Of a stretch of DNA of 24,698 nucleotides, positions 1,650 through 20,956 are shown piece by piece (within the stretch, counting starts at the first letter, position 1; each line of letters starts with the position of its first letter). Both the position numbers and the translations under genes were made by a program. Where the stretch lies: positions 1 through 24,698 of the IMG/VR virus record IMGVR_UViG_3300027749_000465, one strand, 5' to 3'. This DNA is from a virus. Below the pieces are notes generated by a model, which saw nothing but the letters and a program-made list of their open reading frames with translations, was not told where the DNA came from and searched no databases.

Positions 1650-4600
1650 CTATGCCTTCGAGTTTGAGCGTCGTGCACTCAGGGCCTGCCGCATTTGCTC
1701 GGTCGATGGCGGGAGTGTAACTCCGCCACCACCCCGGTAGATGTCGGGCAATCGAACAGGCTCCCTGCGCTCCTGCCGCATCCCCGCAGGTTCTGGCCGA
1801 ACCAGTCCGTTCTTGTCCAGCTCTGCTTTGAGGGCTGCGATGTACTCTTCTTGTGATCGGCGAGGCAATGGCTCTCTCAACTCTGCCCGGGGCAAAAGTC
1901 TTACCAAATTTTTTGTAACGCCTGTTTGCGTCAAGGCTCTGCTGCGATGCCGTCCTTCATGCCCTTTTATAAAAGGCATCAACGGCAAACCAACTTCTTC
2001 TTTGTCTAGCCCTAGAAATGGAACATCGTCAAAACCACCTTTACGCAAAATGGTTGCAAGATGTTTTATATGTTCTGACGTAGGTACTGCAAACTTTTCA
2101 CCAAGATGCTTTATTACTGTTGGATCTTTGTGTCCCGTTAGAGATTCTATTATGGGCGCTGCATAGTTTTCAAAATGCGCCGGGTCCATAGTCATAACAG
2201 CTTTTGCATTATCCCCAGTAAATGCGGAATGCAAAGCCTCGGGGGAGTACATCCGCTGTAGATTTGGTATCTCATCCGATGCGCGTTCAAATCTTCGAGC
2301 CCCATACACCCCGGCGTCTTGCAGAATCTTATCGCGCAGGCTGCCCCCGGCCATATGCCCAACACCGCCACCCTCCGCTTTTTTGACAACACCGAATCCG
2401 AGTTTGCCTAGATCCTGCGGTCGTTGCCGGGGCAGGTCGGCCACGCCGGCTGCCTTATTGATTGCGGCAACTTCCTCGTCGGGCAGCACACGATTGACTT
2501 TCATCGATCCGCCGATCAGCCAGTTGCCGGTCATGTTGGGATTGGTCTTGTACCGGTAGTGCCCGCCTGTGGGCACTTGGTCGGTGATGTGCGCCTTCAC
2601 CGGCACGACGCGGCCCTTGTCGTTGGTGCCGCGGCGTTGCGCCTCCGAGTGCCAGTCGACATCGTTGGGCATCTCCACCTCGGCCCAGACGTGGTTGTCA
2701 GGCCGTACATCCGGTTTCTTCAGCCCTGGCGTGGACTTGCCGCCGATGTGCGTGGCGATCGGTAGGTCCCCAGCGTGCCAGCCTGGGCGATACGCCAGCG
2801 GGCCGATCTTAGACTTGACCTTCTCACCCGCCATCTCGCCGGCCTGGGCTGCAAGCCACTTGCCCTGCTCGATGGGCTCGTTTGCGTCCACGAACAGCGG
2901 AAACAGCTTGCCCGGGTGCTTGGGGTGCGTGCGGAACAGCTTATACGCCTTGGTTGTCTTTGTGGGCTCAGGAGCTTCTTGGAAAGCGCGCGAGGCTACG
3001 ATCGGTTGATCTTTTTTTTTAGCCAGTTCACGCTTCATCTGTTCAACAGATCCACCATCGGCCATCTTGCGCATCGGCCCGAGTGCTGCCAGCGCCTGAC
3101 CCTGCGGCGTCATCGTCAGGATGTTGCTGCCGGTAGGCTTCTGCTTGGGCGGCGGGATGTTCGGCGGCTCCAGGCCGGCAGGCTTGCCCGTGGGCATCCC
3201 TGGCTGGTTCCTGGGCAGCGGCGGTGGCATACCCGGCATGCCCGGGCCAGGGCCGCCTGGGGGCATCCCAGGGCCTCCTGGGGGCATTCCCGGCATCCCT
3301 GGCATGGTAGGGCCACCAGGGCCAGCGGGCACCGCCTGCGAGAGCTGTTGCCCCGGCATCTCGGGCTGGAAGTCAACGCCACCAGAGGGCAGGCCGATGC
3401 CGTCCCCCGGGCCCGGCGGGATGTACTGCTTGACCTTCATGTCCGGCGCCTCGTCCGCGCCGATGTTCCTGACGTTGGGGCCCTTCTTGGCCAACGTGGT
3501 GTGCGCCAGCATCTCGTCCATCGAGACGTTGCCACCCTTGGCGTAACCCCTGACCGCGCGCAACTTGGTGTAGTAATCGTTCATGATGTTCAAGTACCGA
3601 TCATCGACCACCTGATGCGGAGCTGACAACGACATGGTCCGGGTGTACGCCCCTGGGCTTGATAACTTAGGTTTGATGTAATGCGTGGCGTCCATGAATG
3701 CCAGCTCCATAGGCGCCAACTCTGGTGCTCGGCCCAAGGATGTGCCAAGAATTTTGTGGCTGTAGGTGTTGTGTTCAGCGCCTGGGACTAACTTTGCGCC
3801 GGGCCTCATTTGCCCCACCGCGTGGCCCGTCATATTGATTTCCATATTGCGGAGCTCGGGTTCGGAGATTGCATACTCTATATCCGAACCGTTTGGAAAA
3901 CCCAAGGCTTTAGTAACATTACCTAATTTCATGGTCTTGTTAAAAAACTTGCGCATTTCCGGGTCTGCCCGCATTGCCTCATACGCTTCATTTGGGTTTT
4001 CCACCCCGGGCCATTTTGGAAACGTAACTTGTATTGGGTTGCCTTGCCTGTCTCTATCCGCAAAACCTTGTTTCATTATTGCGTTAAAAGTCTGATGATT
4101 TTCAGGTTTTATTTTTGAGTTGTTTACCGCTTTTAGATTAGCATCCGCAAAATGTAAAGCGAAGTTGTTACCGGCGTGACCCATCGCCAGATGGTGCGCA
4201 ATGACACGGGGGTCTTGCCCGGTGATCTGAGCCAACTCAGTCACGCGGTTCTGAAACCCTTGCGCAGGGGCTATGCCAGACGCCCAGAAGGGCCGTTCAT
4301 TTTCTGGCAAATGTAGCTTGCCTTCTCCATAACGGGACCCGCCTTCTTGGTTTGAGCCAATGGGTAGGCCGTTTACTTCCACCAGTCGCTGGTCCGATAT
4401 AGTCTGATCACCGGGCAATACTACATTTACATCGCCTTTTTGCCCTGTGTAGATCGGGGTGGGTCGAACTGCTTGGGTTGGTGTAGTTGTGTATTGGGTC
4501 TGCTTAACCCGCTTGGCTTCTCGAATTGATCGGCCCGCCAAATTTTCTGTTTTGCCCGGCTCGGTGACATGCTCACCCAATTGCTGCCTTGCGATGCGAT

Positions 4601-6395
4601 CCACAATGGCGTTCATTTCCTGGTTTGACGGTGCCGGAGCCGGGGGTAAGTTGGCTGGCCATTTTTTTTCCGAGCCGCCTTTAGCAAAATGCTTGACCAT
4701 CAGGGCTTGCCGCATCTTCTCAACGCTACCGCCATCGCCGTACCCGAGCATGGCCTTGGTCAAGTCCTTGTGCGTGGTCTGCGTGCCGCCGCGCTGGTCC
4801 CACACGTCGTGGTGGATCAGGTGCTGCTCGTAGGGCTTGAGCTCGTTGGGGATGTTGTACCCCAGGGCTTCCTGGCGCGCGATCAGCCGGTCCACCGCCT
4901 CCTGGCCGCCCAGGCCCTTACCGCGCGACATCATGCCCTCGGGCGTCTTGGTCGGGTGCGACAGCGAGTGCAAGTTGAGCTGGCGGGCGTCCAGCGTGGG
5001 CAGGTCACCACGGCCCAGCAGCGAGCCGATGAAACCGGACTTGGCACTAGCGATGCCCTTGATGCCGCCAGCGAACTTGCGGTAGTCTGCCTTTGAGCCG
5101 GTGATCGCCTTGTTCAACCTCTCGCTCAACGACGGAGCGTTCTGCGTCGCGTACTGCATGGCCTCCACCTGGGCGTTCTGCTTGCCGAACGGTGCGAACT
5201 TTTCGCGCAGGTCCGCTAGGGCTTCCGGGTGGTCCTCGCCGCGCATCGACGCTTCCAGGTACTTCTGCCCCATGGGTGAGCCCAACCACTCGGCGAACGC
5301 ACCTTCAGGCCGCACCTCGCCGCCCGTGTTGGGCAGCTTCATGCCGCGCTTGGTAGCCGTTGCGTGCGACAGCCCGCCGCGCCCAATGCTGCTCTGCGTG
5401 ATCGTGTACGCCTTGACAAAATCGCGCGGCGTCAGCTCCCCGGATTGCGCCTTGGCGTTCATCTCGCGCATGTAGTCGGCGTAAGGTCCGACGTGCTCGG
5501 GCAGCTCGCGCCGAGCTGACAGCTCCTGGCGGATGCGCTCCATCGGGTGCCAGATCCATTCGTCAATCTTGCTGGTTTTGGGGTCCTGGTACGGGGGCTG
5601 CTTGCCTTCTTTGAGTTTGACGGGTGCCACAGCGCCTCCTTGGGCCTTGTTGATGTCGTAGTCCTCGGTGTCGTACGTACCACGGTTGCCGACCGCGGAC
5701 TTGATTGCGCCCGGGTTGTACACGCCCAGATTCTTGACGCCGCCTTCTTTGACCCAGAACGAGTCGTGGCCCAGGGCGCGGATGGCTTGTTGGACCGGCT
5801 TGGACTCGATCGTTTGCCAGTTTGCTCCGTGAGCGTAATCACCGCTCATCGCCGTGTCGAAGTCGTCTATGTGCTGGGTGTGCCCCAGCTTGTGCAGCAT
5901 CGTACGCACCGCGTGGACGTGCTTGGGGTTCTCGTAGTCGAACGGCTTCTTGGCCTGCACGTGCACCGGCATGATGTTCTGCGCGCTGGGCAGTTGCTCG
6001 GCCAGTTTGTTCGCGTAGATTGTCTGCGTGTTCGGGAGCGCCTGGGGTGAACCGATCAGTGCTATTTCGCGCTCAAAGGCTCGCATATTCCGCCGCGTCT
6101 TATTCGTGGACAATTCTTTTGCGGTCAAGTCTTTTGCCCGCTCGATCTGCTCACCGGTCAGGATCGTGCCGGCGTTGCGCTTCATCCAGGATTCGCTCAG
6201 GTCGGCGAAGTCGTGCGCGAACTTGGGGTTGGGCGTCACGAACGACGCGCCGGCTTGCTTGGGTTTGAACTGACTGATGTCGCGCGCAGTGCCGTGGTAC
6301 ATGCGCTGCTTGACCTCGCTGGGCTCCAGGAACGCCTGCCGGCCCTTCTCGCGCAGCTCGGCGCTCATCTGCTCGGTGCTGGGTGCTTTAGCCAT
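1650..6395 (-). CDS. 1581-aa polyvalent phage protein with N-terminal ADP-ribosyltransferase-like domain
   Basis: Several domains are strung on flexible linkers. Residues 32-242 look like an ART-PolyVal domain: it opens with YHGT, has a strand MPVHVQAKKPFDYE, and ends in the signature NPGAIKSAVGNRGTYD, which marks these toxin-like ADP-ribosyltransferases. Residues 280-475 contain IKGIASAKSGFIGSLLG then LPTLDARQ, resembling a helix-hairpin-helix DNA glycosylase core (inference). Residues 640-945 are a module with VNGLPIGSNQEGGSRYG. Residues 1020-1085 are Pro/Gly/Met-rich and collagen-like. Residues 1148-1320 match a widespread phage module (KLFPLFVDANEPIEQGKW, YRYKTNPNMTGNWLIGGSMK). Residues 1450-1525 carry GHEGRHRSRAL. 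The modules are separated by repeated (A/D)GGxVxxMrxxL linkers. The gene sits between terL and portal, 12 bases after the terL stop. Polyvalent proteins are thought to enter the host with the DNA. The target here is unknown. Confidence 0.75.
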   Translation of the reverse strand: MAKAPSTEQMSAELREKGRQAFLEPSEVKQRMYHGTARDISQFKPKQAGASFVTPNPKFAHDFADLSESWMKRNAGTILTGEQIERAKDLTAKELSTNKTRRNMRAFEREIALIGSPQALPNTQTIYANKLAEQLPSAQNIMPVHVQAKKPFDYENPKHVHAVRTMLHKLGHTQHIDDFDTAMSGDYAHGANWQTIESKPVQQAIRALGHDSFWVKEGGVKNLGVYNPGAIKSAVGNRGTYDTEDYDINKAQGGAVAPVKLKEGKQPPYQDPKTSKIDEWIWHPMERIRQELSARRELPEHVGPYADYMREMNAKAQSGELTPRDFVKAYTITQSSIGRGGLSHATATKRGMKLPNTGGEVRPEGAFAEWLGSPMGQKYLEASMRGEDHPEALADLREKFAPFGKQNAQVEAMQYATQNAPSLSERLNKAITGSKADYRKFAGGIKGIASAKSGFIGSLLGRGDLPTLDARQLNLHSLSHPTKTPEGMMSRGKGLGGQEAVDRLIARQEALGYNIPNELKPYEQHLIHHDVWDQRGGTQTTHKDLTKAMLGYGDGGSVEKMRQALMVKHFAKGGSEKKWPANLPPAPAPSNQEMNAIVDRIARQQLGEHVTEPGKTENLAGRSIREAKRVKQTQYTTTPTQAVRPTPIYTGQKGDVNVVLPGDQTISDQRLVEVNGLPIGSNQEGGSRYGEGKLHLPENERPFWASGIAPAQGFQNRVTELAQITGQDPRVIAHHLAMGHAGNNFALHFADANLKAVNNSKIKPENHQTFNAIMKQGFADRDRQGNPIQVTFPKWPGVENPNEAYEAMRADPEMRKFFNKTMKLGNVTKALGFPNGSDIEYAISEPELRNMEINMTGHAVGQMRPGAKLVPGAEHNTYSHKILGTSLGRAPELAPMELAFMDATHYIKPKLSSPGAYTRTMSLSAPHQVVDDRYLNIMNDYYTKLRAVRGYAKGGNVSMDEMLAHTTLAKKGPNVRNIGADEAPDMKVKQYIPPGPGDGIGLPSGGVDFQPEMPGQQLSQAVPAGPGGPTMPGMPGMPPGGPGMPPGGPGPGMPGMPPPLPRNQPGMPTGKPAGLEPPNIPPPKQKPTGSNILTMTPQGQALAALGPMRKMADGGSVEQMKRELAKKKDQPIVASRAFQEAPEPTKTTKAYKLFRTHPKHPGKLFPLFVDANEPIEQGKWLAAQAGEMAGEKVKSKIGPLAYRPGWHAGDLPIATHIGGKSTPGLKKPDVRPDNHVWAEVEMPNDVDWHSEAQRRGTNDKGRVVPVKAHITDQVPTGGHYRYKTNPNMTGNWLIGGSMKVNRVLPDEEVAAINKAAGVADLPRQRPQDLGKLGFGVVKKAEGGGVGHMAGGSLRDKILQDAGVYGARRFERASDEIPNLQRMYSPEALHSAFTGDNAKAVMTMDPAHFENYAAPIIESLTGHKDPTVIKHLGEKFAVPTSEHIKHLATILRKGGFDDVPFLGLDKEEVGLPLMPFIKGHEGRHRSRALTQTGVTKNLVRLLPRAELREPLPRRSQEEYIAALKAELDKNGLVRPEPAGMRQERREPVRLPDIYRGGGGVTLPPSTEQMRQALSARRSNSKA
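3198..3332 (-). repeat. collagen-like Pro-Gly-Met coding repeat
   Basis: Short imperfect GC-rich tandem units encode residues about 1022-1066 of the 1581-aa protein, including MPGMPGMPPGGPGMPPGGPG. The repeat keeps frame and behaves as a flexible spacer between the central module and the C-terminal module. The unit length varies, so it is an expanded coding repeat and not a CRISPR or intergenic element. Confidence 0.7.
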
Positions 6396-8849: not shown

Positions 8850-9335
8850 TTATTCCTCGGATTGGCGCTTGAGCGCCATGTTTTTGAGCAGCTCGCCGAA
8901 TATGTCGAAGCTCACCGTGTGCTCGACCTTCGAGTCGTCCACCGTGACGTTCTGGCGCGAGCCGTACTTCTTGGGATCCCAGCAGGCCAGCAGGCGCAGG
9001 CGGACGTCAGTCTGATTCTTGCGCCACGAGATACTGCCCGGGTCGTAGCGTTTATTGCCCAGATCGTCGTGCACCGCCAATGGCTCGGTGTCGATCAGGT
9101 TCATGCAATCCTGCGCGATGATCTCGTATCCGGCATCCCGCGCGCGCGCGTACGCTACGGCGAAATCTGGGTCTTCGCGCTGCCATTCGCCGATTGTCAC
9201 GGGGTTTGGGTGACCCGGCAATGCGCACCATTGCGCCAGCGGTTTGCTAGACGCAATCCACGCCGCAACATCGAGCTTGAGCTCGGCCTTGTTGGGGAAA
9301 TTGCTTATGCCCTTTGGGCGTCCTCGTGTAGCCAT
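8850..9335 (-). CDS. terS: terminase small subunit
   Basis: This is the DNA-recognition subunit that hands phage DNA to TerL. The 161-aa product begins GRPKGISNF, has a helix-turn-helix region around residues 20-55 (VTIGEWQREDPDFAVAYARA), and a central helical part. Its C-terminus has WDPKKYGSRQNVTVDDS, as in many phage small terminases, and ends in a helix that may contact TerL. The ATG lies inside the end of the preceding coiled-coil gene (31-base overlap). The partner terL is about 1.0 kb downstream, separated by the lysis genes. Confidence 0.82.
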   Translation of the reverse strand: MATRGRPKGISNFPNKAELKLDVAAWIASSKPLAQWCALPGHPNPVTIGEWQREDPDFAVAYARARDAGYEIIAQDCMNLIDTEPLAVHDDLGNKRYDPGSISWRKNQTDVRLRLLACWDPKKYGSRQNVTVDDSKVEHTVSFDIFGELLKNMALKRQSEE

Positions 9336-9535
9336 GCGCGCGAGTCTACCCCAGCAGGCTGCGTGGCTGCAAATTCTTCAGTCCAGTCTTCCAGCGATTT
9401 GACGAGCGCGAGCTCGGCCTTGAGGTCCATGATCTGCAGCAACACGAGCGTGAGCTGAGTCGTGCGGGCCTCCAGACGGGCGCGCAGCGCCTCGACCTGG
9501 GCCTCAAGTCTGGCGATGCGTTTAGCGTCAGTCAT
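9305..9535 (-). CDS. small coiled-coil protein, unknown function
   Basis: The 76-aa product is largely a predicted coiled coil over residues 5-48 (IARLEAQVEALRARLEARTT, then LQIMDLKAELALVKSLEDW), with a short polar tail. I do not recognise a family. The ATG follows the stop of the upstream 61-aa gene by two bases, and its own end overlaps terS by 31 bases. That argues it is translated in the same unit. It may be structural or an assembly helper, but this is not shown. Confidence 0.65.
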   Translation of the reverse strand: MTDAKRIARLEAQVEALRARLEARTTQLTLVLLQIMDLKAELALVKSLEDWTEEFAATQPAGVDSRAWLHEDAQRA

Positions 9536-9537
9536 GG

Positions 9538-9723
9538 TTACCCAATATCCCGATCGCCATCGCCGTCGTCTTCGAAATCCACCGAGAGGGTGGACTCGTA
9601 CCGTTCGTCAACTTTGGTTGACGATGGCTTGCTTGCTGGCGTTGCCAACCGCTCTTGACGAGCGCGCCACTCTTCTTGAGCGCGTTTGTCCCTCTCCTCC
9701 TCAATCTGCCACCGGGTCATCAT
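9538..9723 (-). CDS. small highly charged protein, unknown function
   Basis: The 61-aa product starts MMTRWQIEEERDKRAQEEW, a charged helix, and ends in an acidic tail DFEDDGDGDRDIG. ATG at 9721-9723 is chosen because GGAGAGA lies about four bases upstream and the start overlaps the TGA of the DUF1874 gene. An in-frame ATG at 9762 has no ribosome site. No family is recognised. Its direct coupling to the ring-nuclease gene makes co-expression likely. Confidence 0.6.
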   Translation of the reverse strand: MMTRWQIEEERDKRAQEEWRARQERLATPASKPSSTKVDERYESTLSVDFEDDGDGDRDIG

Positions 9724-10037
9724 GCTGTCTCTCCATCGGCGGCCAGCGAGACGCTGACCCATTCGAAAGAACTGCCCTCGGGCAGTACGGTAGTGCCCTC
9801 GGGCAGGCGCGGCCCCTGCAACTGGGCAACGTACATCCAGTCGCCCACGTTCAACCGCACCGAAATGCGGTTCATCGATACGCCCAACAGGGCGGCGGTG
9901 TCGGCGTGACCGACGGCGCTGGTGTAGCGCCCAGCAGCCAAGGTACGCTCGGGACGTTGGCAGGGTGCGAACCGCACCCTGTGGAGATCAGCTTGGGCTA
10001 CCATGCCCAGGCTGAATGCGTTTGCGATGTAAATCAT
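9720..10037 (-). CDS. DUF1874 / AcrIII-1-family viral ring nuclease (putative anti-CRISPR)
   Basis: The 105-aa product matches the STIV B116/SIRV1 gp29 fold family in motif order. It starts MIYIANAFSLGM, then has the central SAVGHADTAALL with H44 at the place of the catalytic histidine, NRISVRLNVGDWMYVAQ, and the GPRLPEG loop with R77 and E80. Members of this family degrade cyclic tetra-adenylate and so switch off type III CRISPR ancillary nucleases. The length is usual for the family. It overlaps both neighbours by four bases or fewer in a leftward unit headed by a cassette promoter at about 10450. Activity is inferred from family. Some DUF1874 members could have other roles. Confidence 0.82.
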   Translation of the reverse strand: MIYIANAFSLGMVAQADLHRVRFAPCQRPERTLAAGRYTSAVGHADTAALLGVSMNRISVRLNVGDWMYVAQLQGPRLPEGTTVLPEGSSFEWVSVSLAADGETA

Positions 10038-10252
10038 TGCGTTGCCCCCTCGATCATGTGCCGGGGGCCGTAATTGTCGTACGTCACGAACGTGATGTCC
10101 GACCAGACTTGGCCGCCGCCGATGCGCTTCTGCGCCGCCCTGAAGTTCTTGTAGCTGACCCAGGCGTAGCCCTTCTCTTCGACCTGGATCTTCAAGCGGG
10201 TCGTGCGCCCGCTGTAGGCGGCGCGCAGGGTGGCGTAGGTGACGGTGCTCAT
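10034..10252 (-). CDS. small protein of unknown function upstream of the ring nuclease
   Basis: The 72-aa product has TYATLRAAYSGRTTRLKIQV, then VSYKNFRAAQKRIGGGQVW, and ends in an aromatic-rich strand region DITFVTYDNYGPRH. It looks like a small alpha/beta fold with many basic residues. No family is recognised. Start and stop overlap the neighbours by ATGA on both sides, so it is translated with the ring-nuclease gene. Confidence 0.65.
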   Translation of the reverse strand: MSTVTYATLRAAYSGRTTRLKIQVEEKGYAWVSYKNFRAAQKRIGGGQVWSDITFVTYDNYGPRHMIEGATQ

Positions 10253-10416
10253 TCTGCCGCCCCCTCGACTGCGTCCCAGTACGCCTGCTCGCCGGGTGTC
10301 ATGCCGGCCTCGAAGTACTCCTCGTCGGCCAGCTCGGCCTCGTAGCGGGCCTGGGCAGCGGCCACGCGGGCCTTGATGTCCCGGCTGACCAGGGCGTTGA
10401 ACTCGGCTTGTGTCAT
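10249..10416 (-). CDS. 55-aa acidic protein of unknown function, first gene of its block
   Basis: The product starts MTQAEFNALVSRDIKARVAA and continues as an acidic, Ala/Glu-rich helix ending PGEQAYWDAVEGAAE. A strong ribosome site GAGGAGAGACGAC stands directly before the ATG, and promoter cassette A lies just upstream. The stop overlaps the next start as ATGA. The function is unknown. Confidence 0.65.
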   Translation of the reverse strand: MTQAEFNALVSRDIKARVAAAQARYEAELADEEYFEAGMTPGEQAYWDAVEGAAE

Positions 10417-10429
10417 GTCGTCTCTCCTC

Positions 10430-10473
10430 GTTGCTGAAGTTGATATTGTAACCCGGAGTTTGAGGCTCCGGGT
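10430..10473 (-). promoter_or_regulatory. promoter/leader cassette A with palindrome
   Basis: Read on the minus strand, it has an eight-base inverted repeat ACCCGGAG/CTCCGGGT (loop CCTCAAA). This is followed at once by TACAAT at 10445-10450, a good sigma-70 -10 hexamer, then the shared leader ATCAACTTCAGCAAC and the ribosome site of the 55-aa gene. The same arrangement recurs in four other intergenic gaps. No matching -35 hexamer is clear, so an activator, a phage-specific RNA polymerase or an RNA role is possible. Confidence 0.6.
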
Positions 10474-10480
10474 GTCCGCG

Positions 10481-10933
10481 TCAGAAGTGCGGGTTCTGCT
10501 CGTAGTGGTGGCCGTTCACCAGCGCCCAGCCGTGCTGGAGCCAGCGGCCCGTGTTCTTGCTGCGGTTGAACACCTTGCCCTCGCTGGTCTCGACGCGCTT
10601 GAGCGACTTGCTGACCTTGACGACCGTGCCGCAGGGGTAGCAGTCGCCGTTTGACCCGTAGCTAACCTCGTCGCCGATCGCCGGGGCGCGGATGACGTCG
10701 TAGCGCGGGCTGCACTGGTCGCCGGCATCGGTGGCGACGTATGCCTCGCCGCTGAACACCGACGCGGCATCGGCCACGACCTGCGCGAACATCAGCGTGT
10801 CGAAGTCATTCCTGTTAGCCCAGCCGCCATCACCGATGGAGAACCAGCGCGTGCCCACGCCACGGTTTTCTGGGGGCAGGTTGCCCTGGATGGCGGTGAC
10901 TTCGAGGCGGCTGTTGAGGTGAAAGTAGTTCAT
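10481..10933 (-). CDS. conserved phage protein of unknown function
   Basis: The 150-aa product has an N-terminal part MNYFHLNSRLEVTAIQGNLP with WFSIGDGGWANRNDFDTLMF. Its C-terminal module, residues 86-150, has GDEVSYGSNGDCYPCGTVVK, a lysine-rich strand and the ending HHYEQNPHF. That module looks like a small beta-rich domain seen in many phage and proteobacterial small proteins, without a known job. Promoter cassette B is directly upstream, and the ribosome site is AAGGATCCGAC before ATG. It is the only gene between cassettes A and B. Confidence 0.7.
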   Translation of the reverse strand: MNYFHLNSRLEVTAIQGNLPPENRGVGTRWFSIGDGGWANRNDFDTLMFAQVVADAASVFSGEAYVATDAGDQCSPRYDVIRAPAIGDEVSYGSNGDCYPCGTVVKVSKSLKRVETSEGKVFNRSKNTGRWLQHGWALVNGHHYEQNPHF

Positions 10934-10951
10934 GTCGGATCCTTGGGGTGG

Positions 10952-10995
10952 GTTGCTGAAGTAGATATTGTAACCTGGAGTTTGAGGCTCCAGGT
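10952..10995 (-). promoter_or_regulatory. promoter/leader cassette B with palindrome
   Basis: On the minus strand the inverted repeat ACCTGGAG/CTCCAGGT keeps the CCTCAAA loop of cassette A but with a paired base change. It is followed by TACAAT (10967-10972) and ATCTACTTCAGCAAC. On the plus strand the same hairpin is followed by TAAATTTTTT, so it could also stop opposite-strand transcription. Confidence 0.6.
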
Positions 10996-11002
10996 AAATT
11001 TT

Positions 11003-11731
11003 TTACGCTGCCTGCGTGACCTTGGGGCGCATGATCATGGTCTGCGCCACGCCGTTGTAGACCGCGTGGTCTTTGATGGTGGCCTTGACCTCGCCGGTCT
11101 CGTTCAGGCCCAGGAAGTCGGCGTTGCCCTTGTAGATGACCACGTTGCCGGCTGCGTCGCGGCAGATGCTCATCCAGCTCACGCCGAACTGGGACTCCAG
11201 ACGGACCTCGCGCTCGCAGGTCAGGGTCAGGGTGACCTTGTCACCGACCGCGCCGACGTGCGCGCTGGGGGCCTTGGCACGCTTGGCGACCTCGGCGTCG
11301 ACCAGGGCGATCTGGCGCTCTGTAGGGGCCTTAGCGCGGGACAGGAAGGACTCACGGAAACCGACCCAGAAGTCGCCGTCCAGGCCCTGCAGCTTGGCGA
11401 CGAACTCGGCGTTATCGGCCACAAAAGCCGCGCGCTGGGCGATCAGCTCGGCCTCGCGGGCAGCGTAGATGGCGTTGGTCTTGGCGGTCGACGCCTCGGC
11501 GCGCTTGACCGCCGCAGCGTCGAGCTTGGCGTTCTGTTCGGCGGTGTACAGCTTGTCCACCTTGACCTTGCCGACGCCAGAGCCGCCGCACAAGAAGCAG
11601 AAGTAGCCGGTGTGGTTCCACTCGCGACGGCCACCAGCGCCACCGCAGCGGGTGCACTTCGACGTGTAGCTGTAGCCGCCAGTGCAGTTGGCGGTGCGGG
11701 GGGTTCCTGCGCGGGTGAAAAGCTGGGCCAT
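11003..11731 (-). CDS. zinc-ribbon protein with DnaJ-like cysteine motifs
   Basis: The product from ATG at 11729-11731 is 242 aa. Two CxxCxGxG-like motifs near the N-terminus, CTRCGGAGG and CFLCGGSGV, form one probable DnaJ-type zinc-binding unit. An Ala-rich helical segment follows (AEQNAKLDAAAVKRAEAS), then a beta-rich C-terminal half containing VGDKVTLTLTCEREVRLES and ICRDAAGNVVIYKG. The ATG is chosen for its ribosome site AGGAAGATCGAC. An upstream TTG in frame has none. The role is unknown. The zinc unit suggests protein or nucleic-acid binding. Confidence 0.72.
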   Translation of the reverse strand: MAQLFTRAGTPRTANCTGGYSYTSKCTRCGGAGGRREWNHTGYFCFLCGGSGVGKVKVDKLYTAEQNAKLDAAAVKRAEASTAKTNAIYAAREAELIAQRAAFVADNAEFVAKLQGLDGDFWVGFRESFLSRAKAPTERQIALVDAEVAKRAKAPSAHVGAVGDKVTLTLTCEREVRLESQFGVSWMSICRDAAGNVVIYKGNADFLGLNETGEVKATIKDHAVYNGVAQTMIMRPKVTQAA

Positions 11732-11755
11732 GTCGATCTTCCTGTTGGACGCCAA

Positions 11756-11962
11756 TTAGGCAAAATGCCGAGCGGTGGCGTCAGTAATTTCGGCAAAAAT
11801 TTTCACATCGGCGGCATGGTCGTCCAAATATTCTTGCGCGTTGTCGTAGCCCCACAAGATCGCGCAATGCGCAATTGCAGCCTCTGGGCTGGAGGCCGCA
11901 ATCACGGCAATGTTGTGCCGGTCGTTGCGTTTTGTGCTGCTGGCAAAAATTTGGTAGTTCAT
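11756..11962 (-). CDS. 68-aa protein of unknown function
   Basis: The product starts MNYQIFASSTKRNDRHNIAV, followed by an alpha-helical SSPEAAIAHCAILWGYDN and an acidic middle. It resembles a small alpha/beta domain of the kind that begins with a strand and a helix, but no named family is recognised. GGAGATCGAC precedes the ATG, and promoter cassette C lies just upstream. It heads a two-gene block with the zinc-ribbon gene. Confidence 0.65.
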   Translation of the reverse strand: MNYQIFASSTKRNDRHNIAVIAASSPEAAIAHCAILWGYDNAQEYLDDHAADVKIFAEITDATARHFA

Positions 11963-11972
11963 GTCGATCTCC

Positions 11973-11995
11973 GTTGCTGATGTAGAGATTCTAAC
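11973..11995 (-). promoter_or_regulatory. promoter/leader cassette C
   Basis: The minus strand reads GTTAGAATCTCTACATCAGCAAC, with TAGAAT at 11988-11993 as the -10-like hexamer. It is identical over 23 bases to cassette D. The next gene starts ten bases downstream after GGAGATCGAC. Confidence 0.6.
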
Positions 11996-12005
11996 TACAA
12001 GTTTG

Positions 12006-12026
12006 AGCCCCGTGGGGCTTTTTTTT
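12006..12026 (+). terminator. rho-independent terminator hairpin facing the plus strand
   Basis: The plus strand has AGCCCC-GT-GGGGCT followed by a T run (eight T's at 12019-12026), a textbook intrinsic terminator shape. No plus-strand gene ends here. The flanking genes are both leftward, so it would block antisense transcription. On the minus strand the run is A-rich and upstream of the hairpin, so it should not terminate there. Confidence 0.55.
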
Positions 12027-12035
12027 CAACTATTT

Positions 12036-12308
12036 TTACGCCCCGGTCAGGTTGTCGGCCTCGACCGCGTAGTCGTGCAACCAGACGTCAGCGACGCCTT
12101 CGAGCGTCTCCGCAAGGCCTTCCAGCGTCTCCGCGTGCTTGCGGTGGGCGCTGATGTAGCGCAGCGTGTCCACCGCCTCCTTGAGCAGGTAGCGCATGCG
12201 GTCGAGCTCGGCCTCCTGGTCCGCCAGGGCGGCGTGCAGGCCCGTTGCCAGGGTGTTGCCCGCCACGTAGGCGGAGATCTCGTTCTCGGTGTGAGTCGAT
12301 GTGGTCAT
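12036..12308 (-). CDS. 90-aa helical protein of unknown function
   Basis: The product is mostly helical, with ADQEAELDRMRYLLKEAVDT and LEGLAETLEGVADVW. It starts after AAGGAGTGTAAACA and overlaps the stop of the upstream 64-aa gene as ATGA. No family is recognised. It is the last gene of the cassette D block. Confidence 0.65.
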   Translation of the reverse strand: MTTSTHTENEISAYVAGNTLATGLHAALADQEAELDRMRYLLKEAVDTLRYISAHRKHAETLEGLAETLEGVADVWLHDYAVEADNLTGA

Positions 12309-12499
12309 TGTTTACACTCCTTGCACGCGCACAACATAACCGTGCGCAGTTTGGTTTTTGCTTCTTGCGGCGTGTCGAACCCCTCGACATGCGTTGGCGA
12401 TTGTGGGTCGCTACCCCAACGCCAACCCGGCTTCAGCGTCACGAGAATGCCGTTGCCAATGTTGCGCTCGTCATCCCAGTGCTCTACTTTGCGGTTCAT
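12305..12499 (-). CDS. 64-aa protein of unknown function, cysteine-bearing tail
   Basis: The product reads MNRKVEHWDDERNIGNGILV and then PGWRWGSDPQSPTHVEGFDT, and ends in CACKECKQ with three cysteines. GGAGGATTGAACC precedes the ATG. It is translationally coupled to both neighbours. I do not recognise the family. The short Cys tail could bind metal, but a single cluster is weak evidence. Confidence 0.6.
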   Translation of the reverse strand: MNRKVEHWDDERNIGNGILVTLKPGWRWGSDPQSPTHVEGFDTPQEAKTKLRTVMLCACKECKQ

Positions 12500-12502
12500 G
12501 GT

Positions 12503-12850
12503 TCAATCCTCCAGGAAGTAGCGGACCAACAGGTCGTGGATGTCGTCGTGGTACTCGTCGTTCGGCAGGGCAGCGCCGGCGATCACGGTCAGGCAGTCTC
12601 CGACCAGATACACCTCCAGGCCCGTCACCTGAGCGATGGCCTCGGCGATCTCGTCGAAACGCGCGACCTTGAGGTCTTCGCTGGCGATCTCGTCCTCGAA
12701 CTCCCAGGCTTCCGCCAGGAAATCGTCCAGGACATCCCTGGCGTGTTGGATTGCGCGCCGGCAATCCCGGCTGAAAATGTTGATGTCGTCCGAGATGCGG
12801 AACATCTCGTCGAGGCCGTCTACCTCGTTGTCTTGCTGAACATGCGCCAT
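12503..12850 (-). CDS. 115-aa acidic protein of unknown function
   Basis: The product is strongly acidic and helical (DNEVDGLDEMFRISDDINIF, DVLDDFLAEAWEFEDEIASE). Its C-terminal part VTGLEVYLVGDCLTVIAGA looks like two short strands. An acidic small phage protein of this type could be a DNA mimic or inhibitor, but nothing specific identifies one. The ribosome site GGAGAGACGAC is the same as that of the 55-aa gene at 10416. Cassette D is upstream. Confidence 0.65.
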   Translation of the reverse strand: MAHVQQDNEVDGLDEMFRISDDINIFSRDCRRAIQHARDVLDDFLAEAWEFEDEIASEDLKVARFDEIAEAIAQVTGLEVYLVGDCLTVIAGAALPNDEYHDDIHDLLVRYFLED

Positions 12851-12866
12851 GTCGTCTCTCCGTTGC

Positions 12867-12889
12867 GTTGCTGATGTAGAGATTCTAAC
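12867..12889 (-). promoter_or_regulatory. promoter/leader cassette D
   Basis: The minus strand reads GTTAGAATCTCTACATCAGCAAC with TAGAAT at 12882-12887, identical to cassette C. About 30 bases further upstream both copies share GTTGAA(A/G)AAAAG, an A-rich tract that could act as an UP element. Confidence 0.6.
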
Positions 12890-12971
12890 CTGCAGTTACA
12901 GCCTACTGGGGACTTTTCTTCAACTTTTTTTCGTGCTGGGTCTCTTCCGTAGGCAGGCCTTGCTGGGACCG

Positions 12972-13250
12972 TCACTTCTCCAGCTCCTTGATGCGCCGCA
13001 ACGCGCACTCGTAGTGCCTGGGGCCGTAGCTCCAGCAGTCGGGGCCGTGCGTACCAATGTGCCCTTCTCGGTCATCTTGGTACTTGAGGGCGCGTTTGAG
13101 GCGCTCGTTTTCCGTTAGGGCGTCGCCTAGCAGAAGGTCTAGGTTGCGTTCTATTTCAGTCATATCTTTTCGTCCTTTATGTACAACAGTGGCAGAATCC
13201 TGAATAGCATCAACTAGTATCTTGTGTTCGTCTGGTGTAAGTTCAATCAT
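12972..13250 (-). CDS. 92-aa protein of unknown function
   Basis: The product starts MIELTPDEHKILVDAIQDSA, continues as a helix with LTENERLKRALKYQ, and ends in HGPDCWSYGPRHYECALRRI with conserved-looking His and Cys. The ATG at 13248-13250 follows GAGGAAAACTGCA. The frame is open further upstream, but that part overlaps the next gene and has no ribosome site. It overlaps the 80-aa gene by eight bases. The function is unknown. Confidence 0.62.
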   Translation of the reverse strand: MIELTPDEHKILVDAIQDSATVVHKGRKDMTEIERNLDLLLGDALTENERLKRALKYQDDREGHIGTHGPDCWSYGPRHYECALRRIKELEK

Positions 13251-13485
13251 TGCAGTTTTCCTCATATTTATAAACGCTAACGGGAGCCCGCGTTTCAACC
13301 CCAATAGAGTGGAAATGTTTAAGCGCTTGATTAATCGCATCATCGTCAGATTCGGCGGTGACGGATATCCCGGTTTGGTTAAATCTACCGATTGCGTCGC
13401 GTTGACGAGTTTCAAACACTACAAAATAAGGCGAGCGCAAGTTAAGAATATCTCTTTGGGACGATGCTTGTTGATGTTCGTTCAT
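13243..13485 (-). CDS. 80-aa protein of unknown function, lower-GC gene
   Basis: The product reads MNEHQQASSQRDILNLRSPY, then VVFETRQRDAIGRFNQTGIS and VTAESDDDAINQALKHF. This is an alpha/beta pattern reminiscent of small strand-helix domains. Base composition is clearly more AT-rich than the flanking genes, which suggests recent acquisition. It is coupled to both neighbours by short gaps. No family is named. Confidence 0.6.
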   Translation of the reverse strand: MNEHQQASSQRDILNLRSPYFVVFETRQRDAIGRFNQTGISVTAESDDDAINQALKHFHSIGVETRAPVSVYKYEENCND

Positions 13486-13488
13486 GGC

Positions 13489-13695
13489 TCAATGCCCCCT
13501 AGTTGTTTGCTTGACAGAGTTGGTCATCATCGCGTCGACCAGCTCCCGGAACGTCGGCGTCTCCGCGAACTCAACGTCCTCCAGGTCCCGAGTGTCGACT
13601 GCCATGCCGACCCGGTCACCGTACTGCACGGCGACCACGCGCTGGCTCAGGTAGCGGAACCGAGCGGCGTCTAGCGCGTCGGTGTCGTCACTCAT
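13489..13695 (-). CDS. 68-aa protein of unknown function
   Basis: The product starts MSDDTDALDAARFRYLSQRV and has VQYGDRVGMAVDTRDLED and PTFRELVDAMM. The DAARFRYL motif near the N-terminus is common in small phage proteins of unknown function. ATG at 13693-13695 overlaps the upstream gene's stop by eight bases. An in-frame ATG 18 bases earlier is possible but gives only extra residues inside the overlap. Confidence 0.62.
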   Translation of the reverse strand: MSDDTDALDAARFRYLSQRVVAVQYGDRVGMAVDTRDLEDVEFAETPTFRELVDAMMTNSVKQTTRGH

Positions 13696-13954
13696 CGCTG
13701 CGCCCCAATACACGCTGCTCCATGAGCCGGTGGCTGTGCTTGAGTTGTCGGTTTTCCTCCTTCAGCCGGGCAATCTCGGTGGCGGAGTGCCGCAGCCGGC
13801 TCTCGGCCTGCTCGATCCAGTTCGCGACGTCCACGGGCATGCGGTAGGTGGCCGTGGAGGCCACAGGAGCCTCCGCAGGCTCCGACTGGGGCTTGGGTAC
13901 CACCCGGGTCAGTTTTCGCGCTGCTGGGGCTGTTTTAGGCGTTTGGGTTGCCAT
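13688..13954 (-). CDS. 88-aa protein with C-terminal coiled coil
   Basis: The N-terminal half is Pro/Ala/Thr-rich (QTPKTAPAARKLTRVVPKPQ). The C-terminal half is a coiled coil with LRHSATEIARLKEENRQLKH. AAGGAAACCGTA precedes ATG at 13952-13954. A longer open frame upstream lies across another gene and lacks a ribosome site. The function is unknown. It could multimerise. Confidence 0.62.
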   Translation of the reverse strand: MATQTPKTAPAARKLTRVVPKPQSEPAEAPVASTATYRMPVDVANWIEQAESRLRHSATEIARLKEENRQLKHSHRLMEQRVLGRSDE

Positions 13955-14243
13955 TACGGTTTCCTTGGTTGATGAAATTCTCGACTTGCTCGTACAGTTC
14001 CGGCCTGCCGATGTACAGGGACCCCGCGTCCCGTGTTCGGGCGAACCGGCCATCCCGCCACCCGAGCCAATAGTTGGCCTTGCGCGGCGCCTTGCCGTCG
14101 ACGACCAGCTTGCCGCTGATCCACCCCGCAGAATTCTCTTTGACCCGGAAAAAAAGAAACCAGTCAAGATCCTCGTGGTGGAACGAGTGCAGGTGCATCC
14201 ATTCGTCGGTTGCGGGGGCGTTGCCCCTGAATTTTTGAGTCAC
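13935..14243 (-). CDS. 102-aa protein of unknown function, GTG start
   Basis: The product reads MTQKFRGNAPATDEWMHLHS, then FHHEDLDWFLFFRVKENSAG and YWLGWRDGRFARTRDAGSLY, and ends in PELYEQVENFINQG. It looks like a compact mixed fold rich in aromatic residues. The GTG overlaps the TGA of the upstream membrane peptide gene (GTGA), so it is probably coupled to it. An internal ATG at residue 16 would remove a conserved-looking start. No family is recognised. Confidence 0.6.
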   Translation of the reverse strand: MTQKFRGNAPATDEWMHLHSFHHEDLDWFLFFRVKENSAGWISGKLVVDGKAPRKANYWLGWRDGRFARTRDAGSLYIGRPELYEQVENFINQGNRNGNPNA

Positions 14244-14389
14244 AGGGACAACGCCAGGGCGATGCCAATGCCCGCGAAGACCGCGAACACCAGCGCGCTG
14301 GCGACCAGCTCCCCGACGAATGCGTCAAAGAACGACCGCTCCGGCTCGGGGTCGTAGAACTGCGGCCTACGGCTTTCGGGGTCGAACAT
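14240..14389 (-). CDS. 49-aa single-span membrane peptide
   Basis: The product starts MFDPESRRPQFYDPEPERSF and has one hydrophobic segment at residues 28-48 (VASALVFAVFAGIGIALAL), so it should be an inner-membrane peptide with a cytoplasmic charged head. The start shares a base with the preceding stop (TGATG), and the stop overlaps the next GTG. The function is unknown. Superinfection exclusion or lysis timing are typical roles for such peptides, but neither is shown here. Confidence 0.58.
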   Translation of the reverse strand: MFDPESRRPQFYDPEPERSFFDAFVGELVASALVFAVFAGIGIALALSL

Positions 14390-14556
14390 CAAAAATTCCA
14401 GGGCTTCAAGCCCTTGGCCTTGCAGATGCGGCGGGCCTCGCCGAGAGTGCCGGCGAGGAACTCGCCGGTCTGGTCGTTGATCGACGGGGTTGCGTGAACG
14501 ATCACGCGAAACTTTGCGGGCCAGCCCTTGGGGGCCTTGTAGATTGATGCGTACAT
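14389..14556 (-). CDS. 55-aa basic protein of unknown function
   Basis: The product reads MYASIYKAPKGWPAKFRVIV, then HATPSINDQTGEFLAGTLGE, and ends KAKGLKPWNF. It looks like a small alpha/beta domain with two strands and one helix. A strong AAGGAGAG site precedes the ATG by about five bases. It shares one base with the membrane peptide start. No family is recognised. Confidence 0.6.
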   Translation of the reverse strand: MYASIYKAPKGWPAKFRVIVHATPSINDQTGEFLAGTLGEARRICKAKGLKPWNF

Positions 14557-14574
14557 TGCTGCTCTCCTTGGAAT

Positions 14575-14588
14575 GGGGCCGAGGCCCC
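14575..14588 (-). other. short intercistronic hairpin
   Basis: GGGGCC-GA-GGCCCC forms a perfect six-base stem with a two-base loop between the 99-aa gene and the 55-aa gene. No T run follows on either strand, so it is more likely an mRNA stability or translation element than a terminator. Confidence 0.4.
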
Positions 14589-14593
14589 GGGGT

Positions 14594-14893
14594 TTACTTG
14601 AGGGAAATCTTGACGGTGAAAACCGCCGACAGGGTGGCGTACTTCGCGATGACCTCAGGCGCCACGCCCAGGTCCTTCACGAGCTTGCTGTAGGCCACCG
14701 TGGTGCGGTCGGCCTGGACGACCGTGGCCTTGAAGAACTCGCCCTCGAACGCCTTAGGCGCGTCCACCGACGCCGTAGCGGCGTCGCGGAAGGACTCCTT
14801 GAGGGCCTCGGCCTTGGCCGTCAGGGCGGCGATCTGGGAGAGCAACGAGCCGAGCTCGTCGGCATTAGAGGCGGTGTTTGCGATTGCGTTCAT
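14594..14893 (-). CDS. 99-aa helical protein of unknown function, first gene after cassette E
   Basis: The product has an N-terminal helix LSQIAALTAKAEALKESFRD and a C-terminal part with EGEFFKATVVQADRTTVAYS, PEVIAKYATLSAVF and the ending TVKISLK. It resembles small early phage proteins found beside replication genes, but the role is not known. AAGGACAGCACC precedes the ATG. It is the first gene after the primase-helicase and the possible origin. Confidence 0.65.
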   Translation of the reverse strand: MNAIANTASNADELGSLLSQIAALTAKAEALKESFRDAATASVDAPKAFEGEFFKATVVQADRTTVAYSKLVKDLGVAPEVIAKYATLSAVFTVKISLK

Positions 14894-14913
14894 GGTGCTG
14901 TCCTTCGGGGTGG

Positions 14914-14934
14914 GTTGCTGATGTAGAGATCATA
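14914..14934 (-). promoter_or_regulatory. promoter/leader cassette E
   Basis: The minus strand has TATGAT (14929-14934) then CTCTACATCAGCAAC, matching cassettes C and D downstream of the hexamer. Just upstream is an inverted repeat TACAAC-N6-GTTGTA (14933-14950) that overlaps the -10 element and may be an operator. It lies at the left end of the iteron region. Confidence 0.58.
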
Positions 14935-14950
14935 CAACCGATTCGTTGTA

Positions 14951-15155
14951 CCCCACAAGCCCCCTCATCATCTTTTTTTTCACCGGGGGGTTGTTCCGTA
15001 CCCCTGCTCTATGTTCCAGACCTAGAGCACCCCTGTCAGGGGGTGCTCCAGGTGGTATCTGGAACAAGTAGAGCATGCACATTTGCTCTAGATCACGTCT
15101 GGAACACGTCTGGAACAGTCTGGAACATCTGGAACAGTAAAAATTTGCATGCTCC
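14951..15155. other. candidate replication origin: iterons plus strong hairpin
   Basis: The nine-base word TCTGGAACA occurs five times in direct orientation (15058, 15098, 15109, 15119, 15128) and once inverted (15012-15020). The last four are spaced 11, 10 and 9 bases, about one helical turn each. CTAGAGC/GCTCTAG-like words occur between them. The block ends in an AT-rich patch AGTAAAAATTTGCATGC and abuts the end of the primase-helicase gene. It has no supported open frame. An alternative is an operator array for a regulator. Confidence 0.5.
15025..15048. other. strong GC-rich hairpin inside the iteron region
   Basis: GAGCACCCC and GGGGTGCTC form a perfect nine-base stem around TGTCAG. The inner CCCCTG/CAGGGG can alternatively pair around a single T. 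There is no T run after it on either strand, so it is unlikely to be an ordinary terminator. It may be a structured part of an origin or a protein site. Confidence 0.5.
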
Positions 15156-17213
15156 TCAATCCCACATTCCTGCCTCATTATTAGGCAAAGTGACCCTTCC
15201 GCCGTCGTCTACCGACAGCCGCCCGACGGCCACGAGCTCGGTGATCGCGCCGTTGATTTTGGAGGGTCGGTAGTCCCGCTTGAGGGGCTTGTCTGGGTCG
15301 GGCACGAACGCGCGCCGGGCCAGCACCGCCCGCACCAGCTCGGCCTGGGTCAGGGCCCCGGCGTTGGTCGCCAACAGGGTCGTGGCCTCTTTGAGCACCA
15401 GCGGCTGCCAGACAGCCTTGGGGTCGATGTCCTTGGGCTTGCCCTTCTGGTCCACCACCGCCTGCCTGCCGACATCGGTGAACTGCACAACGCAGGTCGT
15501 CTCATCGTCCCCATCAGCGTCCTGCCCGACGACAACGGTCAAGAGCTCGAACCCATACTCGGCCCCGTCAATCCCGCCCTTCATTTTTGTGACCGTGGCG
15601 ACACGGTCATTGTCGAGCCGAAGCACCTCAATCTCGAAATCCGACGCCGCGCGCAGCCCTGACCAGCCCCGGGCGCCCTTGCTCTCGTCCTTGCCGCTGT
15701 GGTGGATCAGGATGACCATGGCGCCGGTAGCGCGGCTGATGGCCTTGCAGTACCCAAGGACCTTGCCCATGTCCTCGCCGCTGTTCTCGTTGCCCCCGGG
15801 CATGACCTGGGCGAGGGTGTCGATGATGATGACGTCGAACCCGCTGCCCTGGCGCTTGATCTGCGCGAGCAAGGCCTTGACGTCGATCTCCTCCAAGAAG
15901 TTCGGGGCCTCGCCGATGAACCGCATGTTGAACAACTCGGGCGCGATGCCCACGTGCTGGCAGTACGCCAAGCCGCGCTTGCGCATGTCCTCAACGCCCT
16001 CGGCGGCGATCCACAGGGGCGCGACCGGCCTGGGGGTCCGGTGACCGCGCCAGTCGCGCCCGAGGGTCAGGGTGGCGATCAAGTCGAACGCCACGAATGT
16101 CTTGCCGGAGCCGCTGGCGCCGTAGATCACGCCCAGGGTGGCTGCGGGCACGATGCCCTTGCAGAGCCACGTCGACTTGCGACGAACGAAGAACTCGGGC
16201 GCGGTCTCGATGCGAAATCGCTCGGCCTTGGGGGCCGCTCCGATCCGGGGTTCTCCCTCGGGGTTCTCCCCTGGGGGCGGCCCCAGGTCGTCGAACATGG
16301 CCAAGATCTCTTCGCGATTGGTGGCCTTGGGCTTGGCCTTGACGCAGTGCTCGACCCACAGGTACTGCTGCGCGCGTATCTCGTTGTCGCCGCGGTGGCG
16401 CATCGCGACGTCCATCGCGTGGCTGTTGACCAGCGTCGACAGCACCATCTGGTCGGACAGGCCCAGGCTGTACAGGCGCACACCGGCGGCGTGCACTGCC
16501 GCCGAGCCGTCGCCGTCGTCCAGGCCCTCCAGCAGGAAGGCCATGGTGTCGGCGGGCAGGTCCAGCGTGTCGATGTCGGGCATCACGACCTCGGGCCACA
16601 CCTCGGGCATCGGCGGCACGCCCCCAGGGATAACGGTGAGCCTGGGCGCGCTGCTCTTGCCGTACCGGCTGCGCAGGTTGGCTTGGGTCGCCTCGGTGAT
16701 CTCGTGGACCCCCAAGGCGTCGCTGCAGACGTCGCCGGTGATCGTCAAGAAGCGCGCGGCGTGGCCGGCGTACACCTCCACCCCCAGGTCGTGGTTGTTC
16801 CAGTCCGTCGGTGACGCGCCCCTGGCAACAATGCGCAGGCCCCGACCGCTCGGTGAGATCTCGGTGTAGCTGCCGACCATCGCGATGATCTCGATCGCAC
16901 GGGCTGAGAACGTACCCGCCTCGTCGATACAGTTGTCGATGTCGATGAACGTGAACTCGGGCAGCCCTGTCACCACGAACCCCAGGCCTGTGAAGGCGCT
17001 GGGTTTGGCCTGCAACTCGGCCTGCGCGGCCTCGAACGAGAGCCACGTCTCGGGCTTGGCAGTGCTGCGTTGGTTGCCGGGTATCTTGTCCCACTTGCCC
17101 CGCTTCTCGTTCCACTGCGCTCGCCAGGGTGACCAGCGCGCCATCGCCTTGAGCTCGCCGGGGATGTTCGCCGGCTCGTAGACCTCGCCGATCGGCGGGT
17201 GTGCTGTTGTCAT
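15156..17213 (-). CDS. primase-polymerase / RepA-type helicase fusion
   Basis: The 685-aa product would prime and unwind phage DNA. The N-terminal PrimPol-like domain has FIDID with D91 and D93, then EISPSGRGLRI (119-129) and RFLTITGD (154-161), as in phage primase-polymerases. In this protein the usual His after SG is replaced by Arg. The C-terminal half is a RecA-fold ATPase of the AAA_25/RepA type: GASGSGKT at 365-372, VIIIDT at 461-466 and ILIHHSGKD at about 501-509. A winged-helix-like tail follows. ATG at 17211-17213 has GGGACAACA before it. An in-frame ATG at 17282 would add 23 residues without a ribosome site. It lies between the Cro-like gene and the iteron block. Confidence 0.88.
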   Translation of the reverse strand: MTTAHPPIGEVYEPANIPGELKAMARWSPWRAQWNEKRGKWDKIPGNQRSTAKPETWLSFEAAQAELQAKPSAFTGLGFVVTGLPEFTFIDIDNCIDEAGTFSARAIEIIAMVGSYTEISPSGRGLRIVARGASPTDWNNHDLGVEVYAGHAARFLTITGDVCSDALGVHEITEATQANLRSRYGKSSAPRLTVIPGGVPPMPEVWPEVVMPDIDTLDLPADTMAFLLEGLDDGDGSAAVHAAGVRLYSLGLSDQMVLSTLVNSHAMDVAMRHRGDNEIRAQQYLWVEHCVKAKPKATNREEILAMFDDLGPPPGENPEGEPRIGAAPKAERFRIETAPEFFVRRKSTWLCKGIVPAATLGVIYGASGSGKTFVAFDLIATLTLGRDWRGHRTPRPVAPLWIAAEGVEDMRKRGLAYCQHVGIAPELFNMRFIGEAPNFLEEIDVKALLAQIKRQGSGFDVIIIDTLAQVMPGGNENSGEDMGKVLGYCKAISRATGAMVILIHHSGKDESKGARGWSGLRAASDFEIEVLRLDNDRVATVTKMKGGIDGAEYGFELLTVVVGQDADGDDETTCVVQFTDVGRQAVVDQKGKPKDIDPKAVWQPLVLKEATTLLATNAGALTQAELVRAVLARRAFVPDPDKPLKRDYRPSKINGAITELVAVGRLSVDDGGRVTLPNNEAGMWD

Positions 17214-17332
17214 TGTTGTCCCAATCTCATGCCGCGTCTCATAGGGGTCGGGTGAACTTACCGGCGGGGCAGAGACGGGCATGCTTTTCGACGAGGGGAT
17301 CAGCCTCGCCTAGCCGGGGTTCGGGGGCCAGT

Positions 17333-17542
17333 CTACACCTCCTTCGACAGCATGTCGGCGAGCCGTGGGTTGACAAGACGGTCCCGGCCCACGCCGGTGA
17401 CCTGCTCGACCTCGACGACCCGGGCGCTGGGCACGTACCCCTGCCTGACCCAGTAGCTGACGACCTGTTGGGTGACGCCGAGCAGGTCGGCCAAGTTGCG
17501 TTGGGTGCCCGCGACGCTGACAGCCTCTTGTATTCCAGTCAT
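17333..17542 (-). CDS. Cro/YdaS-like helix-turn-helix repressor
   Basis: The 69-aa product has a helix-turn-helix of the Cro type: QRNLADLLGVTQQVVSYWVR, followed by PSARVVEVEQVTGVGRDRLV. This is the usual size for a phage Cro-like regulator. It is the first leftward gene and has a perfect AAAGGAGGT ribosome site. A TTTGTACAAA palindrome overlaps that site, so self-repression is likely. It probably controls the divergent early promoters. No CI-like partner is visible in this window. Confidence 0.85.
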   Translation of the reverse strand: MTGIQEAVSVAGTQRNLADLLGVTQQVVSYWVRQGYVPSARVVEVEQVTGVGRDRLVNPRLADMLSKEV

Positions 17543-17552
17543 GACGACCTCC

Positions 17553-17562
17553 TTTGTACAAA
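17553..17562. promoter_or_regulatory. candidate operator TTTGTACAAA
   Basis: A perfect ten-base palindrome overlaps the 5' edge of the Cro-like gene's ribosome site. A half-site GTACA recurs at 17572-17576 within GGTACACG. It is a likely target of the adjacent helix-turn-helix protein. Confidence 0.5.
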
Positions 17563-20473: not shown

Positions 20474-20956
20474 ATGAACTTCAGTACAGCGATTGAGCTA
20501 TTCAAAAACAAACGGTGTATGTGGCGGAAGAGCTGGGGCAGCAGTGCCTACGTGGGCATGCAGATGCCTGAGCGCGCGACCAGCCTGCTGACGTTGCCCT
20601 ACTTTTTCCGACGGGGTAAGGACGGCACGGAGCCCTGGTTCCCGACCATCGAGGACATGTTTGCCACTGATTGGGAGATCGTTACCTCGAACCAAAAGAA
20701 CGCGCCGGAAGAGGCCGCGAAGGAGAGACCCGATTACGTACCGACCCCGACGGTCGAAGAGATGGCCGCATTCAACAAGGCGCGAATTCTGCGAGCAAAG
20801 AAGGCCAAAGAAGCCAAAGCAAAGAAAACTCCGAGGGTGATCGATCCCGAGGCGCCATGGGGTCGCAAGAAAGACGGCACGCCGGCCAAGCGCCGTGGCC
20901 CTTTCTCGGCAGCCGAGAACATGGCCATCGCGGCATCTGAAGCCCCACTGATCTGA
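20474..20956 (+). CDS. DUF2829 / Tad2-like protein (putative anti-Thoeris) with basic tail
   Basis: Residues 1-72 follow the DUF2829 pattern: MNFSTAIELFKNKRCMWRKS, YVGMQMPERA, then PYFFRRGKDGTEPWFPTIED and TDWEIVT. Tad2, the founding member, binds the cyclic ADP-ribose messenger made by Thoeris and so blocks that defence. Some homologs also bind CBASS cyclic nucleotides. The last 85 residues are a Lys/Ala/Arg-rich tail (ARILRAKKAKEAKAKK) not typical of the short family. GGAGAGACGAG precedes the ATG. It sits inside the replication operon between DUF2815 and polymerase genes. The ligand is unknown. Confidence 0.82.
   Translation: MNFSTAIELFKNKRCMWRKSWGSSAYVGMQMPERATSLLTLPYFFRRGKDGTEPWFPTIEDMFATDWEIVTSNQKNAPEEAAKERPDYVPTPTVEEMAAFNKARILRAKKAKEAKAKKTPRVIDPEAPWGRKKDGTPAKRRGPFSAAENMAIAASEAPLI

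Follow-up and report, generated by a model that had tools for sequence, protein, structure and literature searches.

A compact predicted ring nuclease of the AcrIII-1 family in a tailed phage

Type III CRISPR complexes sense phage RNA and respond by making cyclic tetra-adenylate (cA4), which switches toxic effectors on. Viral AcrIII-1 enzymes have been described as directed at this molecule (PMC12657218, PMC12409355). SIRV1 gp29 cleaves cA4 with a rate of 5.4 per min, whereas the H47A variant binds the molecule but does not cut it (PMC7213978). When the protein I3VYU1 of phage THSA-485A was assayed as AcrIII-1 in E. coli carrying the Csm complex of M. tuberculosis and Csx1 of T. sulfidiphilus, Csx1-mediated plasmid immunity was almost completely prevented (PMC7371418). 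Cleavage of cA4 by Crn2 needs one conserved histidine (PMC7293037). In AFV3-109, His45 touches Arg64 and, across the dimer, the other monomer's Glu86; Arg83 takes part in dimer contacts, and the pocket is lined by Asn6 (PMC1796864). Here, we analysed a 24,698-nucleotide stretch of viral DNA (the window; IMG/VR virus record IMGVR_UViG_3300027749_000465, positions 1 to 24,698), in which an earlier note, made from the sequence alone, had read the gene at 9720-10037 as a putative AcrIII-1 ring nuclease of a tailed phage. The same note held that phage members of the family are less studied than archaeal ones. This is true only in part, since an in vivo test of the THSA-485A member exists (PMC7371418) and an earlier count found AcrIII-1 in 36 phage genomes (PMC12409355).

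The gene and its neighbours are as follows.
8850..9335, minus strand: terminase small subunit, the conserved downstream neighbour
9720..10037, minus strand: DUF1874 / AcrIII-1-like ring nuclease, 105 aa, with predicted catalytic H44 and with R57, R77 and E80
10034..10252, minus strand: upstream small gene, 72 aa, no assigned function, with a 4-nt ATGA overlap with the DUF1874 start
10249..10416, minus strand: gene 1 of the mini-operon, 55 aa, no assigned function

The coordinates given by the earlier note were exact, and the strand, which it had left out, is minus: the frame runs from 10037 to 9720 and opens with an ATG that has no earlier in-frame start. A Shine-Dalgarno-like GAGGGGG lies about 9 nt ahead of the ATG (context GAGGGGGCAACGCA-ATG), and the start codon overlaps the upstream stop. 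This start signal and the overlap give the gene the look of a translated phage gene. The plus-strand reading of 9720-10037 gave PfaD_N as its best Pfam match (E = 0.24, sub-threshold) and was dropped.

To assign the family, we compared the window protein with PF08960 (STIV_B116-like, formerly DUF1874), which it matched with E = 6.6e-6 and 26.6 bits, just over the curated cut-off of 26 and in agreement with the DUF1874 call made before. It also matched phrog_5063 (PHROG, function not assigned; E = 7e-12) and, as a single sequence, AFV3-109 (E = 5.9e-5). Since the PF08960 margin is thin, an alignment of 31 proteins (the window protein and proteins of IMG/VR contigs) was built, and support for the family rests on this profile together with the fold. 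Searched against the PDB, the profile recovered all four solved archaeal-virus members (2j6b, 7.6e-15; 2x4i, 3.9e-14; 2j85, 3.4e-12; 6scf, 5.2e-12). PF08960 matched 31/31 rows of the alignment, and no second Pfam family was found at E <= 0.01. Membership in DUF1874 is beyond chance. In a tree, the window protein clustered with its relatives in contigs L003, L006 and L008 (support 95/99); the deeper forks of this tree were not resolved.

The AlphaFold2 model of the monomer had a mean pLDDT of 93.4. Foldseek matched it with probability 1.00 to SIRV1 gp29 (2x4i and 6scf, the latter with bound cA4), STIV B116 (2j85), AFV3-109 (2j6b) and Csx1-Crn2 of Marinitoga, and the next-ranked PDB match after the DUF1874 structures had a probability of 0.06. 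The top viral match was I3VYU1 of phage THSA-485A (E = 3.9e-10, 41% identity). The DUF1874 fold that the earlier note had anticipated was thus found in the modelled monomer, with DUF1874 structures as the only significant PDB matches.

The three residues singled out before are placed correctly in the translated frame, with H44 in SAVGHADTA and R77 and E80 in GPRLPEG. H44, R57, Q72, R77 and E80 align with H47, R66, Q81, R85 and E88 of SIRV1 gp29, as counted from the printed profile alignment to 6scf, where the alanine in the H44 column is the engineered H47A of that crystal. Likewise, N6, H45, R64, R83 and E86 of AFV3-109 correspond to N6, H44, R57, R77 and E80 of the window protein. The 31-protein set was fetched with peptide patterns that included AVGHADTA, and conservation of H44 there is partly built in; six relatives found by plain tblastn were therefore used as a fair test. 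H44, R57, R77 and G81 were kept in 6/6 of these and E80 in 5/6. Among close relatives, dN/dS was 0.09-0.33, showing that they evolve under purifying selection. A relative in a phage of Methanobacteriales (L069 101-421, vir080) carries Ile in place of the conserved Glu (GRLPIG) and keeps the His and Arg residues; judging from this substitution, its activity is possibly altered.

Compared with the tested members, the window protein is six residues shorter between TAALLG and the NR motif, a part of the helix that follows the catalytic histidine. The deletion is common to the close clade (L003-L009) and to the more distant L010, L014, L015, L039 and L040, while the full helix is retained in THSA-485A, the plasmid copies and the archaeal proteins. 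R57, directly past the deletion, remains in register.

Because the terminase small subunit is adjacent, the DUF1874 gene sits in a tailed phage, and the record carries terminase, portal, DNA polymerase and lysozyme genes. A near-identical neighbourhood with the terminase small subunit downstream was found in four contigs (L001, L002, L004 and L005), and the gene is also near terminase in L008 and L009. In addition, a 93%-identical copy occurs in the otherwise unrelated contig L003, and copies of 65-69% identity occur in L006 and L007, contigs of much lower G+C. To judge from these sequences, the gene behaves as a mobile accessory gene, turning up with 65-93% identity in phages that are unrelated in other respects, as would be expected of a counter-defence gene. 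Elsewhere in the window, a 1581-aa polyvalent protein (1650-6395, minus strand), whose residues 138-240 match an ART-PolyVal (ADP-ribosyltransferase) domain, lies between portal and large terminase. ARAGORN called a tRNA-Trp at 3139-3228 (plus strand) within this long gene of the minus strand, antisense to a stretch rich in Gly, Pro and Met; this call is probably spurious.

DNA-level relatives (the Bordetella phage BPP-1 group) cover only about 2% of the window. By terminase and portal, which are about 75% identical, the nearest named phage is MW202545.1 (Manatee Spring), in which DUF1874 had no match. From this slight DNA kinship and the relation to MW202545.1, no host can be deduced. Csm1-type Cas10 scored above the family cut-off in 3/9 bacterial bins with a relative compared with 9/99 controls (one control family), an excess that is suggestive only, as the numbers are small and the groups differ. 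One of the bins is a Rhodopila bin; when 289 genomes of its class were searched, PF08960 was matched in that bin only, below the cut-off, and the family looks rare in these chromosomes.

Upstream of the DUF1874 gene, a repeated element was found at the head of its mini-operon.
10430..10473, minus strand: repeated promoter/leader-like element (putative function) heading the 55aa-72aa-DUF1874 mini-operon
10952-10995, 11973-12016, 12867-12910 and 14907-14930, minus strand: further copies of the element

The element reads GTTA(C/G)AAT(C/A)TCTAC(A/T)TCAGCAAC, with the farthest of the five copies deviating in the first part, and each copy immediately precedes a minus-strand mini-operon of small genes. 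Several copies have a GC-rich inverted repeat just upstream, and copies were also found in L004 and L005. A sigma-70 consensus scan of 9300-17700 returned no promoter, so we call the element promoter-like solely from its position and repetition; Rfam gave no match. The gene at 10481-10933 (minus strand) encodes a 150-aa protein of phrog_9742 (function not assigned) with relatives in Vibrio, Aeromonas, Brevundimonas and Dinoroseobacter phages. In the otherwise syntenic L005, the same element copy heads the same genes, yet the neighbouring 150-aa gene is missing, which suggests that the small-gene units are exchangeable cassettes. In archaeal viruses, counter-defence genes have been found through shared early regulatory sequences (PMC11065993). 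By analogy, the DUF1874 gene would be expressed early and the small-gene block may be a fair hunting ground for counter-defence genes, with the repeat ahead of the operons as a concrete handle for choosing further candidates.

The same phage also carries a gene related to another anti-defence family.
20474..20956, plus strand: Tad2-like (PF11195, Thoeris anti-defence 2-like) N-terminal domain, a candidate second signal-molecule antagonist

The PF11195 match scored 54 bits against a cut-off of 25. The protein has an extension of about 85 aa, its gene comes shortly before that of DNA polymerase A, and its sequence similarity to solved Tad2 chains is marginal. On the 235-kb viral contig L015, a Tad2-like gene (1517-2083) and a DUF1874 gene (5001-5294) are about 3 kb apart, and a gene with a flotillin/SPFH domain lies between them. 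No Tad2 was seen in 30/33 records searched, many of which are fragments; hence we claim no general link between Tad2 and DUF1874. With a predicted ring nuclease and a Tad2-like protein, a single phage may weaken two signalling defences that are unrelated to each other.

Taken together, the PF08960 match, the fold, the residues and the kinship with THSA-485A support the earlier reading of an AcrIII-1 gene in a tailed phage, and we consider the gene to encode a viral member of the AcrIII-1 (DUF1874) ring nucleases, with predicted activity, at a probability of about 0.88. Because of the THSA-485A immunity assay and the enzymology of SIRV1 gp29, we propose the following mechanism. In a host that would carry type III CRISPR, the 105-aa protein would dimerise and its cradle would close over cA4, the presumed specific substrate. 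H44 would protonate the leaving group in a pocket shaped by R57, by R77 and by the partner subunit's E80, and cA4 would be converted to di-adenylate, rapidly and without a metal ion if the protein behaves as an AcrIII-1 enzyme, silencing the alarm.

Three other explanations bear on this assignment. Loss of six residues from the helix could alter the pocket, so that the protein would cleave or bind a CBASS signal or a cyclic oligoadenylate other than cA4 and counter a different signalling system. The deletion in the window clade and in the more distant records would fit such a shift, as would a Tad2-like gene on the same phage that is aimed at other signals. However, every catalytic or pocket residue known from the cA4 enzymes is retained, R57 is in register immediately after the gap, and cA4 is the described target of AcrIII-1 (PMC12657218, PMC12409355), and we regard a shifted substrate as unlikely. 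A Csx16-type ring nuclease, in place of AcrIII-1/Crn2, would lead to the same outcome, cleavage of cA4. The PADLOC Csx16 model weakly matches the window protein (E = 3.1e-5) and matches all 31 relatives, and Csx16 is present in two phage genomes and has a weak structural likeness to AFV3-109 (PMC12409355). Against it, the NCBIfam Csx16 models gave no match, whereas PF08960 was the one Pfam family found throughout the alignment and the significant PDB matches were all DUF1874, which makes Csx16 very improbable. The DNA-binding regulator originally proposed for AFV3-109, which is reported to bind nucleic acid (PMC1796864), survives as the label 'DNA binding protein' in some lipothrixvirus records. 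We give this role hardly any credence here, as conservation falls on the residues of the catalytic site and ring nuclease activity was later found for the family, a phage member included (PMC7371418, PMC7213978).

Beyond the AcrIII-1 assignment, we offer a speculation that we think doubtful: the shortened-helix clade may be a phage ring nuclease in its own right, differing in substrate range or in kinetics, and may form one cassette of an anti-defence block with a shared, repeated promoter-leader. If this were true, the other small genes behind the repeated element (10481-14893) would be undiscovered counter-defence genes.

Among known systems, AcrIII-1 of the Thermoanaerobacterium phage THSA-485A (Tsac_2833, I3VYU1) is the closest tested relative, and in E. 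coli it does away with type III immunity that depends on cA4 (PMC7371418). It too is a tailed-phage gene, about 42% identical over nearly the full length, with the same fold and an N/S/M/H/D/R/Q/R/E set identical to that of the window protein; it differs in its host, Thermoanaerobacterium, and in its complete helix past the histidine. SIRV1 gp29 (AcrIII-1; 2x4i, and 6scf with cA4) has the fold and the five aligned site residues in common with the window protein, but is only about 22% identical (structure alignment), has a longer helix and belongs to an archaeal rod-shaped virus. AFV3-109 (2j6b) and STIV B116 (2j85) share the fold and the His/Arg/Arg/Glu site, but are archaeal-virus proteins, and in the relative from AFV8 the NAFS motif is missing. 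Crn2, as in the Csx1-Crn2 fusion of Marinitoga (8y7f, 8y7g), has the same domain fold and is found inside type III CRISPR loci, whereas the window gene stands alone in the genome of a phage, and the window proteins that were scanned showed no cas genes. The gene is not a new kind of system. It is a compact-helix member of the AcrIII-1 family. This family is known best from archaeal viruses, and the gene gives it a well-supported member, a compact form of the enzyme, whose close relatives occur in tailed phages that are otherwise unrelated.
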